From the NCBI GenBank assembly GCA_023250585.1, contig JAHFAK010000007.1, forward strand, positions 19,282-38,126: DNA of 18,845 bases, read 5' to 3'. Below are positions 10,553 to 18,845 of the stretch, one piece after another. The first letter of the stretch is position 1. Each line of letters begins with the position of its first letter. This DNA comes from Deltaproteobacteria bacterium (GTDB lineage Bacteria; Bdellovibrionota_F; JAHFAK01). The position numbers were made by a program, and so were the translations under genes. The notes below the pieces were generated by a model. That model was not told where the DNA came from and ran no database searches. It saw nothing but the letters and a program-made list of their open reading frames with translations.

Positions 10553-10677
10553 ATACTAAGTTGCATTCAAACGCTAACTGCGTTGGCTTCGTCGTCGGCT
10601 CCTCAACGTACTCATTACGTACGTTTGCGTCGCCTTCTCCTTGCCGCCTTGTTATCATTTTGAATGCAACTTAGTAT
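10553..10677. repeat. 125-bp palindromic element, copy B (MITE-like)
   Basis: Perfect 19-bp terminal inverted repeats: ATACTAAGTTGCATTCAAA at 10553-10571 and its reverse complement at 10659-10677. The interior is nearly symmetrical about the centre (for instance CCTCAACGTA against TACGTTTGCG). The length equals copy A at 5384-5508, and the right end matches window bases 1-22 (copy C). No protein is encoded and no unambiguous target duplication is visible. It might also act as a transcription-ending hairpin behind cdd. Confidence 0.75.
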
Positions 10678-10789
10678 CAGTCGACGGTAGTGTCTATTTG
10701 CTTTTTAAAAATCCCAAACATAAATTTCCGTCAAGAAAAATAGTAGTATAAAAATTTTCTTGCCAGCTAAAGTTAAAATGTCACATTTT

Positions 10790-10807
10790 TGTTTAGATGT
10801 TCAAACA
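10790..10807. promoter_or_regulatory. Upstream activator dyad 1 (TGTTT-N8-AAACA)
   Basis: TGTTTAGATGTTCAAACA, an 18-bp dyad. Its centre is about 127 bp upstream of the GC of the sigma-54 -12 element, the same distance (within 1 bp) as the dyad in front of the second sigma-54 promoter. It is probably an enhancer-type binding site for the sigma-54 activator encoded at 17172-18596. The pattern is seen; the binding protein is inferred. Confidence 0.55.
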
Positions 10808-10820
10808 TATGAAAGAGAAA

Positions 10821-10838
10821 TGTTTCAGATGCTAAACA
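10821..10838. promoter_or_regulatory. Upstream activator dyad 2 (TGTTT-N8-AAACA)
   Basis: TGTTTCAGATGCTAAACA, 18 bp. Its centre is 31 bp downstream of dyad 1, close to three helical turns, as expected for two dimers of an NtrC-type activator binding on one DNA face. It shares 12 of 18 bases with the dyad at 18603-18620. Confidence 0.55.
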
Positions 10839-10911
10839 TACTGAATGCTCTGTGTAATGAGGGAATTATCATAACGTATCAGAATTATGTGTGTTTATAT
10901 ATTCTATTTTT

Positions 10912-10928
10912 TTGGCATGAATATTGCT
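10912..10928 (+). promoter_or_regulatory. Sigma-54 promoter of the kinase/aldolase/sensor operon
   Basis: TTGGCATGAATATTGCT contains the -24 GG (10914-10915) and the -12 GC (10926-10927) with the required 12-base offset, and it agrees with the consensus TGGCAYR-N4-TTGCW. Transcription should start near 10939, leaving a leader of about 75 nt. A near-identical promoter occurs at 18724-18740, and the operon ends with a sigma-54 activator gene. Confidence 0.8.
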
Positions 10929-11015
10929 TATTTAAATTTAATATAGAATCTTCTTGCCAAAGGCTTACTGATAGCCTATGAAAAGGACAAGAACCTCTGG
11001 GGATGGAGGATATGC

Positions 11016-11852
11016 ATGGTAATTGGCGTAATCGGCTCGATTACGAAAGACAGAATTATTATTGATCAAACGAACGATCAGTTTGATCACGTTGGTGGGA
11101 CTGTTTATTATAGTTCACTGACGTTAGCTCATCTTGGATGTTCAGTAATTTCAATTCCACTGTTGGCTGAAAAAGATTCTTATCTTCTAAAACATTTCAA
11201 ACATGAAAATATCGCCTGTTACCCTGCGTGGACTGAAAGGACAACAGAATATGAAAATAGATACCCATCGGATTCTTACGATATATGTGAAAGAACCATC
11301 ATCGCACATGCTTCAGATTTTTCTTTGACGAATACAATACTCAAGAATCTTTCTGTCTGTAGTGCAATTCATTTAGGTCCATTAGCCCATGATGAATTTT
11401 CACCTGATACTTTTACGAAGTTACGAGAACATGTTTCGGGTATTATTGGTTTCGATGCACAGGGTTTTCTCTCTGGAGAAGAAGAGTATTTCAATGAAGT
11501 TGTACAAGGAACGATCGATATCATTAAGCTCAGTTCTCATGAATTACTATCAATAACCAAGGAAACAGATGAAGCAATGGCAGTAGAGAAACTAATAGGA
11601 TTGGGCATACATGAAATTGTTGTGACTCGAGGTTCTCAAGGTTCGACGATTTGTTACAATCAGGAACGGATTGATCTTCCTGCATCTAAGCCACAACAAA
11701 TCATCGATGCTACAGGCTGTGGAGATACGTATTTTGCCGCGTATTTGTTGAAAAGAACTGAAGGATATAGTCGAGAAGACTCTGGAAAATATGCGTCGCG
11801 AATTGCAGCCGAAAAGTTGGCATATCGTGGGCCGATTAAGGATGAAAAATAA
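11016..11852 (+). CDS. PfkB-family carbohydrate kinase
   Basis: A 278-residue ribokinase/PfkB-superfamily kinase. The first motif is present as DHVGGTVYYSSLTLAHLG (residues 24-41), then VTRGSQGS (203-210), and the catalytic and anion-hole motif DATGCGDTYFAAYL (231-244) with Asp237 as base. It would phosphorylate a sugar or nucleoside with ATP in the cytoplasm; the substrate is not deducible. A short lid with sequence unlike ribokinase points away from canonical RbsK. GGAGGA at 11005-11010 is a strong ribosome site 5 nt before the ATG. It is the first gene behind the sigma-54 promoter. Its base composition is higher in GC than the next two genes. Confidence 0.85.
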   Translation: MVIGVIGSITKDRIIIDQTNDQFDHVGGTVYYSSLTLAHLGCSVISIPLLAEKDSYLLKHFKHENIACYPAWTERTTEYENRYPSDSYDICERTIIAHASDFSLTNTILKNLSVCSAIHLGPLAHDEFSPDTFTKLREHVSGIIGFDAQGFLSGEEEYFNEVVQGTIDIIKLSSHELLSITKETDEAMAVEKLIGLGIHEIVVTRGSQGSTICYNQERIDLPASKPQQIIDATGCGDTYFAAYLLKRTEGYSREDSGKYASRIAAEKLAYRGPIKDEK

Positions 11853-12062
11853 GATAGATAGTAGTAAAGCAGCAGGAGAAGAAAGGTGCAACGAAATCAA
11901 ATTAAGCAGAGATTATTAGTAATAACTATTTTGTATTTTCTTATTGCTTTGTCAGAAACAAATCTCCCTGCGAATCAAAAATTGAGATGTACAAATATTT
12001 TTGAAACAAAAATTAAAGGATATTTTAATACAATGGCCAAAGCACTCCTAGAAAGGAAACGT

Positions 12063-12719
12063 ATGAAAGAAGAGCAAATGTTAATAAATAAAAAAGTTAC
12101 AGATATGATCGCCATTGGAAAAACTTTCTATGATAAAAATTGGCTTTTGGGTACATCGGGAAATTTATCCTCACTTATTTCAAGAGATCCTCTCCGATTT
12201 ATTATAACAGCAAGTGGTATGGATAAAGGTACTTTAATTAAAGATGCATTTGTTGAAGTTATTGGTGAAAATAATGGATCCTATCAAGTAACCAAAAATA
12301 CAAGCAAAAAGCCATCAGGAGAAACATTACTTCACAAAGTTATTTACCAATATACCGATGCTGAAACAATTATTCATATACACTCGAGCGAAGCTGTGTT
12401 CGTAGCAGAATTATTTGCCAACAAGGGAATCTTTACGTTTCAGGGATATGAAGTACAAAAAGGTCTAGGGTTTAAAAATATCTGCGAAGAGTGTAGAATC
12501 CCAATACTTGAGAATAAAGAAAATCTTCACGAGTTAGCAAATGAATTTATTTCACGTTGGGAACCATCTCAAATAGCGTTTCTCATCAAAAATCATGGGC
12601 TTTTTGTTTGGGGACGATCTCTTTCGGAAGCAAAGAGGTGTACAGAATTATTGCAACACATGTTTGAATATTCTATTTTGAAAAAAAATTCTGAGGTAAA
12701 AGATAAATATGAATTCTAG
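12063..12719 (+). CDS. Class II aldolase/adducin-family enzyme, MtnB-like
   Basis: A 218-residue zinc enzyme of the class II aldolase/adducin family. WLLGTSGNLSS, GMDKGTL, KPSGETLLH (Glu87), IHIHSSEA (zinc His105 and His107), FQGYEVQKGLG and LIKNHGLFVWGRSLSEAKR (zinc His178) resemble methylthioribulose-1-phosphate dehydratase (MtnB) more than fuculose-phosphate aldolase. It would act on a phosphorylated ketose, such as an isomerised product of the upstream kinase. The start at 12063 has AAAGGA 5 nt upstream and fits the family length. A GTG at 11886 with its own AGGAG would add 59 residues including a hydrophobic run, as if exported. It overlaps the binding-protein gene by 11 bp. The substrate is uncertain. 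Confidence 0.8.
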   Translation: MKEEQMLINKKVTDMIAIGKTFYDKNWLLGTSGNLSSLISRDPLRFIITASGMDKGTLIKDAFVEVIGENNGSYQVTKNTSKKPSGETLLHKVIYQYTDAETIIHIHSSEAVFVAELFANKGIFTFQGYEVQKGLGFKNICEECRIPILENKENLHELANEFISRWEPSQIAFLIKNHGLFVWGRSLSEAKRCTELLQHMFEYSILKKNSEVKDKYEF

Positions 12720-14112
12720 AAAATATATGTTTTTAATCCTGATTATTTTTATATTTAACATACATATGACCGATACTGGATATTGTTGGAGTTTATCTAA
12801 AGCTTCTAAACCATATAAAGGTCAAACTATAACAATCTCATTAATGATTGGGTATGAGGTCAATAAAATTTTGTTGGATAAAGTTATTCCTGAGTTTAAG
12901 AAAAAAACAGGAATTAATGTTGAAGTTCAATTCGTTCCGTATCAAGAAGTTATACCACAACATACGAGAATACTAAAATCTAAGGATTCTAAGTATGATC
13001 TTATTAATGTGGATAATATTTGGTTTCCATTTTACAAGCCTTATCTAGAAAATATTGATCAATTTATTAAAGATTCAAAATTATCGATGCCAAAGTTTAA
13101 TATTTCAGATTTTATTCCAGAATTACTACAGGGGTACCAATGGGAAGAAAATACATACTGTTTCCCATCAACATTTGAGTTCCCTCTTTTAATGGTAAGA
13201 AAGGACTTATTTAAAAAAGCTGACTTCATTGATAAGAATGGAAAGATTATACCACCAAAAAATCTGGATGAATATTATGAATATGCCAAAAAATTAACTC
13301 AAGATATAGATAACGATGGAAAAATTGATGTTTATGGGACAACACTCCATGGCTATAAAACAGGAATTTTTGATGAAGCCATAAGTTGGTATTGGGGTTC
13401 AGGTGGAGAACTTCTTGATAAATCTTTGAACCCAATATTTGGTAATGCTCTACTAATTAAAACCATGAAGATATATAGTAATATCTATCATCATGGGTAT
13501 GCTTCTCCAGAAAGTACAGCATGGGAACTTGGGGAAGCAGCAACTGCATTTAGAACAGGCAAAGCCGCCATGTCTTGGAATTGGACTATGGTTGCACCAT
13601 GGGTACTTGATCCTAAGCTATCTTATGTAGCAGATAAAGTAGAGTTCATTAAGCTCTTTAAGGAAGATACAAAAAGAGTTCATTATTTGAGAGAAGCTTC
13701 AAATGCATTATGTATTCCAAAGAATTCTAATAATAAGAAAGCAGCCTTTTTGTTCATGCAGTTCTATACAAGTCCTGTTATTCAAGAAACTTATGTGTCT
13801 GATCAGTATCGAATTCATCCTTCAAGGAAGTCCATAATTTTCTCCGGAAAATATGCATCTCAGGTTCCATATGCAACTATACAACGCGATGTGATTAAAA
13901 ATCATGAAATTAGGCTTTGCCCTAAAATCCCTGAGTACACTGACATTGATCAAATTGTTGCGATGAGATTTCAACAAATAATGACAGGAGATTTATCTGC
14001 ACAGATTGGTATTGAACAAGCAGTCGTTGATGTTCAGAAGTTATTAAGTCAAGGTAACTATTATGAAGGTAACAAAAGTTATACACCGATCTTTTCTGGT
14101 ATTTACAAATAA
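12709..14112 (+). CDS. Extracellular sugar-type solute-binding protein (family 1)
   Basis: A 467-residue protein with a signal peptide (basic start, hydrophobic residues about 6-18, cleavage probably around residue 26). It is followed by a family 1 solute-binding fold: TITISLMIGYEVNKILLDKV, FKKKTGINVEVQFVPY, YDLINVDNIWFPFY, and a domain-2 region with GEAATAFRTGKAAMSWNW and AFLFMQFYTSP. DIDNDGKIDVYG is a calcium-loop-like insertion seen in some sugar-binding proteins. Such proteins bind oligosaccharides or polyols in the periplasm and normally serve an ABC importer, but no permease or ATPase is encoded nearby. It overlaps the sensor-kinase gene by 50 bp. A sensory role is inferred from that pairing. 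Its codons are markedly AT-rich. Confidence 0.88.
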   Translation: MNSRKYMFLILIIFIFNIHMTDTGYCWSLSKASKPYKGQTITISLMIGYEVNKILLDKVIPEFKKKTGINVEVQFVPYQEVIPQHTRILKSKDSKYDLINVDNIWFPFYKPYLENIDQFIKDSKLSMPKFNISDFIPELLQGYQWEENTYCFPSTFEFPLLMVRKDLFKKADFIDKNGKIIPPKNLDEYYEYAKKLTQDIDNDGKIDVYGTTLHGYKTGIFDEAISWYWGSGGELLDKSLNPIFGNALLIKTMKIYSNIYHHGYASPESTAWELGEAATAFRTGKAAMSWNWTMVAPWVLDPKLSYVADKVEFIKLFKEDTKRVHYLREASNALCIPKNSNNKKAAFLFMQFYTSPVIQETYVSDQYRIHPSRKSIIFSGKYASQVPYATIQRDVIKNHEIRLCPKIPEYTDIDQIVAMRFQQIMTGDLSAQIGIEQAVVDVQKLLSQGNYYEGNKSYTPIFSGIYK

Positions 14113-17100
14113 ATTACGAACAAATTTTTATAGCAAGTTGTTATTGAGTATTATTTGTTTTTCTTTAATACCAACATTATTGTTGATACTAATAGTTTGC
14201 TGTATTTATTCTACTAAATATAATTATGAACTCGAACGTTATTCAATGACTTCTTTACAATTAGTAAGAAGCAATATCCGCACTTATCTTGATAAAGCTC
14301 TTGGAGAAGCCCTTGTTATTGCAAAAATGCAATCAATTAATAATGCTATCTTAAATAGAAAAATAGATGAACTTCAAATGCTTACGTTCGAACTTAAATC
14401 AGCCATCAACGCTGATTTACTTATTATAACAGATGATAATGGTAAAGTTATTACTCAAGCTAAAGATGTACAGAAATATTTACGTTTAATTCTTAGCGAG
14501 AAAAATTTTTCTAAGATTATCATAGAAAATAAGTTTAATAAAGAAATCATTGAAAATGATGATGAAGTATTATTAGTAGCAACGGTTCCTGTATTTAATT
14601 GGGTTGCAAATGGTACAATAACCGTTGGGTACAGACTTAATAAAGAAAGATTAAGCTTAGTCAAAGATTTTCTAGGTTTGGATATTATACTTTTACATAA
14701 AGATGGATCACATAAACATACCTATAGTAATAGTAACTCTGGGATTCAAAAAGTTATTAAACTTCTTATATCAATGAGAGGTATAAATGAAAATAGAACA
14801 CGTTTTTTTAGAGAAAAAGTAAATAATGAATTACAGCAATTTATTGTAGCTCCTCTCAGTGAATCTTCTAAGAAAACTATTATAGCTGTGAGTTCACCAA
14901 TACGATCTTGGTATATTGAATTTTTACAGTTTCAATATACCTTTATTGTACTAATCATTGTTCTAATAATCTCTCTCATCTTTTCTGCGTATAAGTGGGG
15001 AAGAAAAATAACAAAACCATTATATGCAATTTTAGATATTGCTAAACAGGAGAATGAGTTAGACAGTTGTTTTAAAGAAGATGACTTATATACATTAGAT
15101 GAATTTGAAAAGATTGGATATGCTTTTAAAAGGATGGCAAAAAAGATTAAACAACAATCCCGTCTTGCCGCGATAGGCAGCACAACAGCAATCCTAGCTC
15201 ATGATGTGCGTAAGCCGTTCACGAAACTCAAAGCATTGCTCAATTATTTTGATGAATACAAACAATCACCGGTAAAGCTTGAGAATGCGAAGCAAGAAAT
15301 AGAGAAGTCTATTAAGCAAGTTGAGAGCATGATCAATGACATCATGGATTTCTCACGAGAAGTAAAACTTGAGACCAAGCCTGTGCCGCTTGTTCAGCTG
15401 TTTGATTTTTCTATTCGACAGATAACACAAGGGCATGATGAGAGTCTGATTATGTTTGAATATAATGTGAGTCATAGTAAAAAGCCTCGTGTTGATGATG
15501 AGCGAATGTCGCGAGTATTTTCGAATATTATAGGCAATGGCATTGAAGCGATCACGGTTATAGGGAAGAAGAATACGGGAACGATTACGATAACAACAAA
15601 AGATATTCAAAGAGAAGATACGTCATTCATTGAGATAACAATAGCCAATGATGGACCTTTGTTCAAAGAAGAAGATATTCCCAATTTATTTGAGTCATTT
15701 TTCACAAAAGGTAAACGAAAGGGAACAGGACTTGGGCTTGCATCAGCACAAAAGATTATCAATTTACACGGTGGCACTATTACTGCCCACAATAAATCTC
15801 ATGATACAGGAGTAGAGTTTGTAATGACAGTACCTGCATCGGATGAGAAAGAAAGAATAGATCTGACTATACTACCGAAGAATAGCAAAGAAGCAGCGTT
15901 TATAGAATTAAAGAAAGACACACGAGAACTTGATCGAATCATTGAGACAATACAGAATAAGCGATTCAAGATATTACTTTTAGAAGACGAGGCATTGTAT
16001 CGGAGCGCAGTAAAGAGCATGATACAAAAGGATGAAACCCTTCGCAATATCATTACTCTGTATGATGCGCATACGGTGGATGAGGCATTAGAGATAGTAG
16101 AGAAAGAAAATATCTCTCATGCAATAGTTGATATTGATTTAGGTGATGTACAAAACGGCTTTGATTTTCTTGTATATCTTTCCCAAAACCTAAAAACGAA
16201 AAACCAAAAACTATCATGCATGATTCATTCTAATCGCCATTTAGATGAATTCCGGCAAAAGGCATTTTCATTAGGAGCAAAAGCATTTGTTCCTAAGCCT
16301 TTGGCGTTAGAACATTTGGTGGATTTTCTATCGGTTAGCGGCTTGCCCTGCGTAGCACCTGACCTTCATAGCTCTCCGAGCGAAGTAGGTTTGGCAAAGC
16401 AGGCTGATGGGTCAGAGGTTAGCGTCGTAGAAGAAACACGCAAACCGTTAACCGAAAACCACAAGCCAAGAATCCTTGTTATCGATGATGATCCAATACT
16501 ACTGAAAGTAACGGGAGATATTGTTGGACGTACATTTTACGGTGCTACCGTACTTGAAGCGAAAAGCCCAGAACAAGCAATGGACATGCTTCATGACCAA
16601 CAATTCGATTACATCTTGTGCGATATCAATTTCGATAATAGTCCTATGAATGGCTATGAGTTTGTTCATACACTACGAAAGGATACTCCAGGATCAAAGA
16701 TATATCTCGTATCATCGACACCTACTGAATTAGCGTATGATGAAGCAATGCGAGCTGGAGCAGATGGATATATAGAACAGCCAATATCGAAAGAGAAGAT
16801 ACGGACGCTGAGTAGTATTTTTCCTTATGCTCTCCGAACTACGGAGATAGAAAAAGCACGAGCACCTAAAACCCAAAATCTCAAACCGAATCTTCTTCTG
16901 TGTCGTGTCTTTCATGATATGAAGAAACTGCACCTGTTCATGGATAGTTTTATACGAGAATCACAAGGAGAGAATTTGAATGAGTGGAAAGAATTATTGA
17001 AACTTTATGGGGATTATTCATTACGAGTTACGAATCTGTTTCGAGAGTATTTACGAAAGCGTGAAGTAATAATAGATGATGAGGCATTAATGAAAAAGCT

Positions 17101-17200
17101 TAATGCCGAAGCGAAAGCATTGAAAGAAGGGCTTGAGCATGTAATGCTACGAGCCAATACGGAAGGAACCTATGAAGCATCAGAATTTACTCATTGTTGA
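14063..17200 (+). CDS. Hybrid sensor histidine kinase with two receiver domains
   Basis: A 1045-residue membrane kinase. TM1 is at about residues 26-50, an extracytoplasmic Cache-like sensor at 51-288 and TM2 at 292-312, followed by a short HAMP-like linker. The DHp domain has AHDVRKP (His380). The ATPase has N-box NIIGNGIEA (488-496) and GTGLGLA (from Gly554). Receiver 1 runs 634-755 (Glu641, Asp642, phospho-Asp690, Lys745). Receiver 2 runs 801-920 (Asp808-810, phospho-Asp854), but Gln906 stands where the conserved Lys is expected. A helical C-terminal domain from about 935 carries FHDMKKLHLF (His951). It overlaps its neighbours on both sides (50 bp, 29 bp). Base composition shifts near 15150. 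It presumably phosphorylates the next gene's product. Confidence 0.9.
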   Translation: MKVTKVIHRSFLVFTNKLRTNFYSKLLLSIICFSLIPTLLLILIVCCIYSTKYNYELERYSMTSLQLVRSNIRTYLDKALGEALVIAKMQSINNAILNRKIDELQMLTFELKSAINADLLIITDDNGKVITQAKDVQKYLRLILSEKNFSKIIIENKFNKEIIENDDEVLLVATVPVFNWVANGTITVGYRLNKERLSLVKDFLGLDIILLHKDGSHKHTYSNSNSGIQKVIKLLISMRGINENRTRFFREKVNNELQQFIVAPLSESSKKTIIAVSSPIRSWYIEFLQFQYTFIVLIIVLIISLIFSAYKWGRKITKPLYAILDIAKQENELDSCFKEDDLYTLDEFEKIGYAFKRMAKKIKQQSRLAAIGSTTAILAHDVRKPFTKLKALLNYFDEYKQSPVKLENAKQEIEKSIKQVESMINDIMDFSREVKLETKPVPLVQLFDFSIRQITQGHDESLIMFEYNVSHSKKPRVDDERMSRVFSNIIGNGIEAITVIGKKNTGTITITTKDIQREDTSFIEITIANDGPLFKEEDIPNLFESFFTKGKRKGTGLGLASAQKIINLHGGTITAHNKSHDTGVEFVMTVPASDEKERIDLTILPKNSKEAAFIELKKDTRELDRIIETIQNKRFKILLLEDEALYRSAVKSMIQKDETLRNIITLYDAHTVDEALEIVEKENISHAIVDIDLGDVQNGFDFLVYLSQNLKTKNQKLSCMIHSNRHLDEFRQKAFSLGAKAFVPKPLALEHLVDFLSVSGLPCVAPDLHSSPSEVGLAKQADGSEVSVVEETRKPLTENHKPRILVIDDDPILLKVTGDIVGRTFYGATVLEAKSPEQAMDMLHDQQFDYILCDINFDNSPMNGYEFVHTLRKDTPGSKIYLVSSTPTELAYDEAMRAGADGYIEQPISKEKIRTLSSIFPYALRTTEIEKARAPKTQNLKPNLLLCRVFHDMKKLHLFMDSFIRESQGENLNEWKELLKLYGDYSLRVTNLFREYLRKREVIIDDEALMKKLNAEAKALKEGLEHVMLRANTEGTYEASEFTHC
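16363..16389. repeat. Palindromic repeat inside the kinase coding sequence
   Basis: A hairpin unit of the form CCTTCATAGCTC-tcc-GAGCGAAGTAGG (one 3-nt bulge) is translated as part of the linker between the two receiver domains. It resembles the intergenic unit at 2011-2036 (CCCTCCGTAGCC-tt-GGCGAAGGAGGG), with TAGC...GCGAAG-AGG in common. It may mark an in-frame insertion of a dispersed palindrome into a tolerant protein linker. Confidence 0.5.
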
Positions 17201-18596
17201 TGATGAGGTACAAATGAGACAGGAAATTAAGACAGTATTGAGTTCACATTTTACTCTTTATGAAGCATCCGATAGTAATCGAGCGATACAGCTTGTCGAA
17301 GAGAAAGAGATTGATATTGTGCTTTTGGATATATGGCTTGGAGATGAGGTCAATGGCATAGAAACTCTCGGAAAGATACAACGACTCGATAGGGATATTG
17401 AAGTAATCATGATATCGAGCGATGATTCACTGGATCTCATAAATCAATGTGTTGATAGGGGGGTATATACGTATATTAAAAAACCGATTCAGAAAGATGA
17501 ATTACTGATTGCAACACATATAAGTAAGAAGATACGTCAGAAGATCTATGAGTGTCGTATTAACGAAGATCTACATCGAATGCATGAAATATCGCCGGAA
17601 GAACTCGTTGGAAAAAGTAAGACAATCGAAGGCGCAAATCGCGCAATTATGCAATTAGGGAAATATCACACTATAACAATACTCATTCGAGGAGAAAGCG
17701 GTACAGGCAAAGAGCTGGTAGCCCGAGCGCTTCATAAGGAATATGGGAATAATAATCGGCCCTTTGTTGCAGTTAATTGTGGGGCATTATCTCCGAGTTT
17801 AATGGAGAGTGAATTATTTGGGCATGAAAAAGGTTCATTTACAGGAGCAGATCGGCGAAAGCTTGGGATTTTTGAATTAGGAAATGGTGGGGATATATTT
17901 TTAGATGAGATAGCGGAATTGCCCATTGATTGCCAGGCAAAACTCTTACGCGTACTTGACGGGAGTGGATTTATGCGGGTTGGTGGGAGTCGATTACTTT
18001 TTTCTGATTTTCGACTCATCCTTGCAACGAATAAAAACCTGGAAGAAATGGTTCTTGTAGAGAAGTTTCGTGAAGATTTATATCATCGAATAAATGCGCA
18101 TACGATTTATTTACCACCACTTAGAGAGCGCATTGAAGATATAGGAATGCTTTGTGAGTATCTTTTACAAAAGATTTGCAAGAGATTACGAATAAGTCCC
18201 AAACAATGTTCAGAGAAAGTTATTGCCTATTTTGAAAAACTTTCGTGGAAGGGAAATGTCCGAGAGCTCAGGAATATGCTTGAGAATATGGCGGTCAATG
18301 CATCGAGTAATATCTTAGAAGCTCATGATTTACAAAGTCTTGAGGTTGATAGCTTAGTCACTCAAAGATCCCAGGACACAAGAACCCAAACCTTGGCACA
18401 ACAAAGTGGCATTGGTTTAAGTCTGTATAAAGCATCACAAGCCGAAGGGTTATCACATGCACTTGATCATTTTGAAAAGGAAGCTCTTTCATTTGCCATT
18501 CAATCACATGATCAATTAACTCAGGTTGCAAAAACCATGAAGATGTCGAGAACAACACTTTTTCTGAAAATGAAGAAGTATAATTTGATGTCATAG
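17172..18596 (+). CDS. NtrC-family sigma-54-dependent response regulator
   Basis: A 474-residue activator with three domains. The receiver occupies residues 1-120 (acidic Asp10, Asp11, Glu12; phospho-Asp53; Ser82/83; Lys104). The AAA+ sigma-54 interaction domain has Walker A GESGTGK (174-180), GSFTGA (221-226, the sigma-54 contact loop, a variant of GAFTGA) and Walker B DIFLDE (241-246), then ILATNKNLEE and FREDLYHRINAHTIYLPPLRER. A Fis-type helix-turn-helix ends the protein (QLTQVAKTMKMSRTTLFLKM). All parts are intact. AAGGAA 4 nt upstream sets the start, which overlaps the kinase gene by 29 bp. Likely targets are the two sigma-54 promoters in this window, through the TGTTY-N8-AAACA dyads. 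Confidence 0.95.
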   Translation: MKHQNLLIVDDEVQMRQEIKTVLSSHFTLYEASDSNRAIQLVEEKEIDIVLLDIWLGDEVNGIETLGKIQRLDRDIEVIMISSDDSLDLINQCVDRGVYTYIKKPIQKDELLIATHISKKIRQKIYECRINEDLHRMHEISPEELVGKSKTIEGANRAIMQLGKYHTITILIRGESGTGKELVARALHKEYGNNNRPFVAVNCGALSPSLMESELFGHEKGSFTGADRRKLGIFELGNGGDIFLDEIAELPIDCQAKLLRVLDGSGFMRVGGSRLLFSDFRLILATNKNLEEMVLVEKFREDLYHRINAHTIYLPPLRERIEDIGMLCEYLLQKICKRLRISPKQCSEKVIAYFEKLSWKGNVRELRNMLENMAVNASSNILEAHDLQSLEVDSLVTQRSQDTRTQTLAQQSGIGLSLYKASQAEGLSHALDHFEKEALSFAIQSHDQLTQVAKTMKMSRTTLFLKMKKYNLMS

Positions 18597-18602
18597 AATC
18601 AA

Positions 18603-18620
18603 TGTTCGAGAAATGAAACA
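18603..18620. promoter_or_regulatory. Upstream activator dyad at the second sigma-54 promoter
   Basis: TGTTCGAGAAATGAAACA, 18 bp, matching 12 of 18 bases of the dyad at 10821-10838. Its centre is about 127 bp from the GC of the -12 element, the same offset as dyad 1 at the operon promoter. A weak half-site (GTTCA at 18635-18639) lies where the second dyad would be expected. Confidence 0.5.
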
Positions 18621-18723
18621 CAATAATCTCAGAAGTTCATATACTACCATTGTTCATTGAGTGTCTGCAGAGATAGTAAAGCGCAAGCACAGTAATCCCA
18701 GAGAATTATATTTTTCTAAAATT

Positions 18724-18740
18724 TTGGCATGGATCTTGCT
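18724..18740 (+). promoter_or_regulatory. Sigma-54 promoter of the gene at 18788
   Basis: TTGGCATGGATCTTGCT has the -24 GG (18726-18727) and -12 GC (18738-18739) at the canonical offset and differs from the promoter at 10912-10928 at only two positions. The start site should be near 18751, giving a leader of about 37 nt ending in AGGAGG (18775-18780), 7 nt before the ATG. Confidence 0.8.
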
Positions 18741-18787
18741 TTTCTCATTTGTACCTGGGGATAACAATTTCAATAGGAGGATTTTGT

Positions 18788-18845
18788 ATGAAGCGAGCAT
18801 TTATCACGGAACATGGGCCATTGGTACGAAGGCTATCAGAGTTAC
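18788..18845 (+). CDS. Start of an unidentified gene, cut by the window end
   Basis: ATG at 18788 behind a perfect AGGAGG opens a frame beginning MKRAFITEHGPLVRRLSEL that runs off the window. Nineteen residues are too few to recognise a family; there is no signal peptide in what is visible. The sigma-54 promoter and activator dyad make it the likely output gene of the two-component system just upstream. Confidence 0.6.
   Translation, partial: MKRAFITEHGPLVRRLSEL

Follow-up and report, generated by a model that had tools for sequence, protein, structure and literature searches.

A sigma-54-dependent two-component sensor operon that probably activates itself, and also relays its signal to a second activator, is encoded in the stretch of DNA analysed here (the window; 18,845 nucleotides, C14:19282-38126), which comes from a draft genome of 2.24 Mb in 164 contigs with 96.66% completeness. 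In the proposed mechanism, a periplasmic binding protein and a membrane kinase would sense a solute, and the kinase, to judge from the adjacency and overlap of the genes, would phosphorylate the NtrC-type regulator encoded at 17172-18596. This regulator would bind 18-bp dyads with the consensus TGTTTA-N6-TAAACA, which lie roughly 105 bp upstream from the -24 boxes of two promoters, P1 and P2, and would then loop the DNA and remodel the sigma-54 polymerase. P1 would raise expression of its own operon (PfkB kinase, MtnB-like enzyme, sensor and regulator), and P2 would switch on a second, receiver-less sigma-54 activator acting on further targets. A sister operon on contig C91 appears to have the same wiring. 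The promoters, rpoN, the protein domains, the conserved dyad position and the gene order are direct observations; positive autoregulation of the operon by its regulator is what we infer from the sequence.

Sigma-54 promoters and the operon between them

The rpoN gene, on which the sequence-only reading of this DNA depended, was found on contig C92 by a profile search of the genome (PF04552, E 1e-62), along with 11 full-strength sigma-54 activator genes or gene parts. Sigma-54 promoters are readily recognisable in this genome, since the pattern TTGGCAYRNNNNTTGCW has 40 matches genome-wide, versus 0 for the reversed pattern; many of the 40 precede genes for lipoprotein-like or secreted-looking proteins, as judged by reading their N-termini. 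The only exact matches to TGGCA-N6-TTGC in the window are P1 and P2, both with exact -24/-12 spacing and both at the places where the sequence-only reading had put two such promoters. The features of the region are given below; dyad distances, here and throughout unless stated otherwise, run from the dyad start to the C of the -12 GC.

10553..10677, no strand: dispersed element of 125 bp with perfect 19-bp terminal inverted repeats (repeat search; 88-100% copies elsewhere in the genome)
10699..10765, + strand: 67-bp block that may hold a basal (non-sigma-54) promoter (97% identity with the 5' flank of the C102 activator operon)
10790..10807, no strand: dyad 1, TGTTTAGATGTTCAAACA, candidate enhancer (UAS) of P1 (137 bp)
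10821..10838, no strand: dyad 2, TGTTTCAGATGCTAAACA, second candidate UAS of P1 (106 bp; 31 bp after dyad 1)
10912..10928, + strand: P1, sigma-54 promoter TTGGCATGAATATTGCT (pattern match, genome class, dyad-plus-promoter search)
10942..11020, + strand: conserved leader, TTCTTGCCAAA...CTGGGGATGGAG (genome search, five places)
11016..11852, + strand: PfkB-family kinase gene, first after P1 (Pfam PF00294)
11886..12719, + strand: class II aldolase family, MtnB-like (methylthioribulose-1-P dehydratase; PF00596, TIGR03328 above cut-off)
12709..14112, + strand: extracellular solute-binding protein (PF01547/PF13416)
14063..17200, + strand: membrane histidine kinase with HisKA, HATPase and two receiver domains (domain search; 48% identical to the C91 kinase)
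17172..18596, + strand: NtrC-family response regulator with receiver, AAA+ and Fis-type HTH (PF00072, PF00158 and PF02954, in order)
18603..18620, no strand: dyad 3, TGTTCGAGAAATGAAACA, candidate UAS of P2 (136 bp)
18724..18740, + strand: P2, sigma-54 promoter TTGGCATGGATCTTGCT (pattern match; from TGGCA onward identical in C54 and C91)
18788..18845, + strand: start of the P2 gene, first 19 codons of a putative receiver-less sigma-54 activator, MKRAFITEHGPLVRRLSEL..., cut by the contig end

The regulator is intact, and its domain order, Walker A (GESGTGKE) and Walker B (GDIFLDE) motifs and loop, together with rpoN in the genome, place it in the NtrC family. The type assigned to it earlier thus stands, as does its location between the two promoters, which it shares with its kinase; the loop, described as of the GAFTGA type, is GSFTGA, a one-residue variant. 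The solute-binding protein gene has no adjoining transporter permease, and its product is probably a sensor accessory. As the domain of the MtnB-like protein begins near residue 68, its true start may be later than annotated. In the kinase, the second receiver (residues ~804-960) carries Gln for the conserved Lys (EQP), followed by an FHDxKK stretch that resembles a second phospho-acceptor helix, and by reading both are found likewise in the C91 kinase. The genes of this first operon overlap or lie 34 bp apart, and a search for a terminator-like site before P2 found none, so that read-through from P1 into the P2 gene is possible.

Upstream of P1, the 67-bp block might supply basal expression of the operon; its + strand was examined for a sigma-70 consensus and had no match. 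The 125-bp element is MITE-like, with several near-identical genome copies, and lies upstream of the circuit without being part of it. Another dispersed repeat, palindromic and translating as LRQGYGGYPP...SAKADR, occurs at 1804-2052 of the window and at L103 ~11790-11910. The leader (TTCTTGCCAAA...CTGGGGAT) has exactly five sites in the genome (window 10942-11020; L099 7377-7454; L103 11592-11665; L104 10158-10233 and 1707-1785), each before the first gene of an operon in or beside the sensor clusters. An Rfam search of the window leader gave no family match, and a leader hairpin spotted by eye was dropped, with RNAalifold on the five leaders giving no convincing consensus structure.

Dyads at a fixed distance and the sister operon

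All three dyads described in the sequence-only reading are present, and so is their geometry. The centres of dyads 1 and 3 lie ~128 and ~127 bp from the -12 GC, where about 127 bp within 1 bp had been claimed, their ends fall 105 and 104 bp before the TGGCA box, and the 31-bp spacing of dyads 1 and 2 corresponds to about three helical turns, again as claimed. The pattern TGTTY-N8-RAACA occurs three times in the window against 0.17 expected, and none of 200 shuffles reached three. By itself, the dyad is not enriched genome-wide (24 distinct sites versus 19 for the reversed-pattern control), and the worry over selection bias that accompanied the first, by-eye detection was therefore fair. Combined with the promoter (TGTT-N10-AACA-N{90,120}-TGGCA-N6-TTGC), it has exactly three matches in 2.24 Mb, namely P1, P2 and one on C91, versus 0 for the control, so that of the expected non-random occurrence across the genome only the part concerning dyad plus promoter was borne out.

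The combined pattern leaves little room for the reading that AT-rich intergenic DNA produced these inverted repeats by chance and that they were noticed once the region had been chosen. The lack of enrichment of the dyad alone and its detection by eye would fit chance, which is nevertheless highly improbable given these statistics and an independent test on C91 at a position fixed beforehand. The order of elements on C91 matches that of the window (promoter, cargo, binding protein, kinase, regulator, promoter), the regulators and kinases are 46% and 48% identical, respectively, and the two regulators are sisters in the tree with 100/100 support. The cargo of C91 differs, with a methyltransferase identified by family search and hydrolase, MATE-like and acyltransferase genes identified by reading. 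Its first promoter has a dyad, TGTTCAATTTACTAAACT, at 137 bp that matches at 7/8 positions only, and its second has one, TGTTTAAGAGGCTTAACA, at 138 bp that matches at 8/8, compared with 137 and 136 bp for P1 and P2 of the window. At the two C91 promoters, shuffles produced a match of 7/8 or better at 136-138 bp with frequencies of 0.46% and 0.38%. Since the upstream regions of the two operons are otherwise ~30% identical in an ungapped comparison, the shared dyad does not come from recent copying.

A cluster on C75, made up of radical SAM, MFS-like, kinase and regulator genes, likewise has dyads at both of its promoters, at distances of 83 and 127 bp; these count for less, because the C75 regulator is not a sister of the window regulator and the distances differ. 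The motif was defined without the C91 and C75 promoters, and 4/4 of these have a dyad of at least 7/8 in the 150 bp upstream, versus 3/37 other sigma-54-type promoters (Fisher p = 3.5e-4). The C75 regulator (L102 236-1549) has GAYTDA where GAFTGA is expected. By reading, the sensor modules have recurring neighbours, namely a thrombospondin-type-3-like repeat protein, a lipoprotein-like protein of ~250 aa and a Ser/Thr kinase-AAA-TPR-like protein (L099 267-6711; L103 2-5970; L102 6362-8733; L104 1767-2588).

Regulators on C5, C102 and C153 form a separate clade (100/99 support), and a different dyad, TGTA-N10-TACA, lies at exactly 66 bp in 3/3 promoters that follow their activator genes, a regularity noticed post hoc. 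The kind of dyad hence follows the regulator clade, an argument that every regulator reads a dyad of its own. The C153 activator (L105 1-130) is without an intact receiver, unrelated sequence and a TGA stop preceding its AAA+ domain at the contig start.

The dyads are very probably real control sites, and their conserved position upstream of the cognate sigma-54 promoters of the window and C91 makes the enhancer reading well supported; the regulator is predicted to bind them. Their placement may be compared with Clostridiales, in which most UASs lie 100-250 bp upstream (PMC6615313). A variant of this scheme, in which the paralogous regulators of the window, C91 and perhaps C75 share the dyads in a cross-connected network, or in which the regulator represses one of the promoters, would make the loop something other than a simple self-contained positive one. 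The same dyad consensus near three regulators fits such sharing, and the sequence does not reveal whether regulation is positive or negative; this variant is rather unlikely all the same, as each cluster has its own kinase and the dyads hold a constant position at promoters of the sigma-54 type, which depend on an activator.

The repeated putative activator gene behind P2

Of the P2 gene, 58 bases lie within the window, which ends at the contig end, and they are preceded by an AGGAGG ribosome-binding site at 18775-18780. The same type of start, MKRAFIT(E/G)HGPLVRRLSELRKLKGSTITIHIYGESG in the longest copy, recurs near-identically at five contig ends (C14, C54, C64, C75 and C91), following a sigma-54 promoter in all five. 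The protein runs for 36 N-terminal residues from the start codon directly to GESG, with no receiver, and this GESG is the beginning of a Walker A motif resembling those of the genome's other sigma-54 activators. Near-identical Fis-type HTH fragments (IMAYEKELLERLLVKNNWHRMKTSKELGISRNRLYKKMQALGI) at the contig edges of C63, C148 and C91 are candidates for the 3' end of the gene family, and directly downstream of one of these 3' ends, on C148, lies a sigma-70-family-like gene (L142 ~265-1170). The middle of the gene is absent from the assembly, and its identity as an activator rests on the 5' and 3' fragments, which presumably belong to one gene. These fragments are most simply read as a receiver-less sigma-54 activator present in several near-identical copies whose middle collapsed in the assembly. 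PspF-type EBPs consist of an AAA+ domain and an HTH, with no receiver, and the P2 gene product, readable here as N- and C-terminal fragments, would be of this type.

Because P2 leads to a further, putative sigma-54 activator gene with at least five occurrences in the genome, the circuit has an output; a sister regulator on C91 shares the dyad consensus, which makes cross-talk possible. The description of the circuit as closed therefore does not hold.

The identity among the copies begins on the left at the -24 box (TGGCATGGATCTTGC) in C14, C54 and C91, and at TTGGCACGT in C64 and C75. The window-type dyad was sought at the C54 and C64 copies and is absent there, other inverted repeats being present, and no regulator of the window/C91 clade adjoins these two copies. 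The P2 repeat was also searched for in IMG/VR and was absent. A tentative explanation is that a cassette of sigma-54 core promoter, leader and receiver-less activator was copied to at least five places, with its left edge at the -24 box, so that various upstream activators, each with enhancers of its own, would drive the same second-tier activator in a plug-in two-tier sigma-54 network of paralogous sensor modules.

The P2-encoded activator, or some other Fis-type regulator, might instead be the protein that reads the dyads, in which case the loop would run via the second activator. This protein would be expressed from a dyad-bearing promoter, and its C-terminal helix (SRNRLYKKMQ) somewhat resembles that of the window regulator (SRTTLFLKMKKY). 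Such a reader is improbable, given that the promoters of the near-identical gene copies on C54 and C64 lack this kind of dyad, that dyads occur at both promoters of both operons having a window/C91-type regulator, and that the C-terminal fragment of the P2 activator scores far higher with the C145 (75) and C7 (73) activators than with the window regulator (39).

Relatives, precedents and meaning

Conservation of the dyads in relatives, which the sequence-only reading had named as a check, was examined by substitute within the genome, where the C91 sister operon gave a positive result. The searches turned up no close relative: the one same-class genome compared gave kinase and regulator matches of ~32-42% identity, one regulator locus and two kinase loci in G001 showed no sigma-54 promoter with such a dyad, and a scan of GTDB r220 with the kinase alignment returned remote kinases only.

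The mechanism is of a known kind, as three precedents indicate. In Myxococcus xanthus, the Nla28S/Nla28 kinase-regulator operon has a sigma-54 promoter and is autoregulated, as predicted here, and Nla28 directly activates other EBP genes via repeated sites (PMC9765219). Nla28 uses tandem 8-bp direct repeats, whereas the window system has 18-bp inverted repeats at one fixed distance, and here, unlike in the Nla28 cascade, the downstream activator gene recurs together with a core promoter of its own. ZraSR (HydHG) of Escherichia coli similarly pairs a kinase with a sigma-54-dependent NtrC-type regulator whose direct binding sites lie upstream of both its own operon and the neighbouring target zraP; this target is a periplasmic chaperone, while that of the window would be a second sigma-54 activator, and cargo and sensor differ as well (PMC7657598). 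For Desulfovibrio vulgaris, autoregulated EBPs were predicted by the same inference from the same layout, with an inverted repeat such as yGTCA-N6-TGACr upstream of the EBP gene; the dyad sequences are different, and conservation was between species there and is between paralogous operons here (PMC4641369).

The underlying mechanism is therefore textbook, and the unusual part is the repeated core promoter with its activator, together with the paralogous modules. The analysis gives a concrete enhancer code, in which dyad sequence and distance are matched to regulator type, for a lineage of which hardly any close relatives have been sequenced, and it suggests that sensor modules in this lineage share a repeated second-tier sigma-54 activator. 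If this is true, sigma-54 networks can grow by the copying of a core promoter and activator behind different enhancers.
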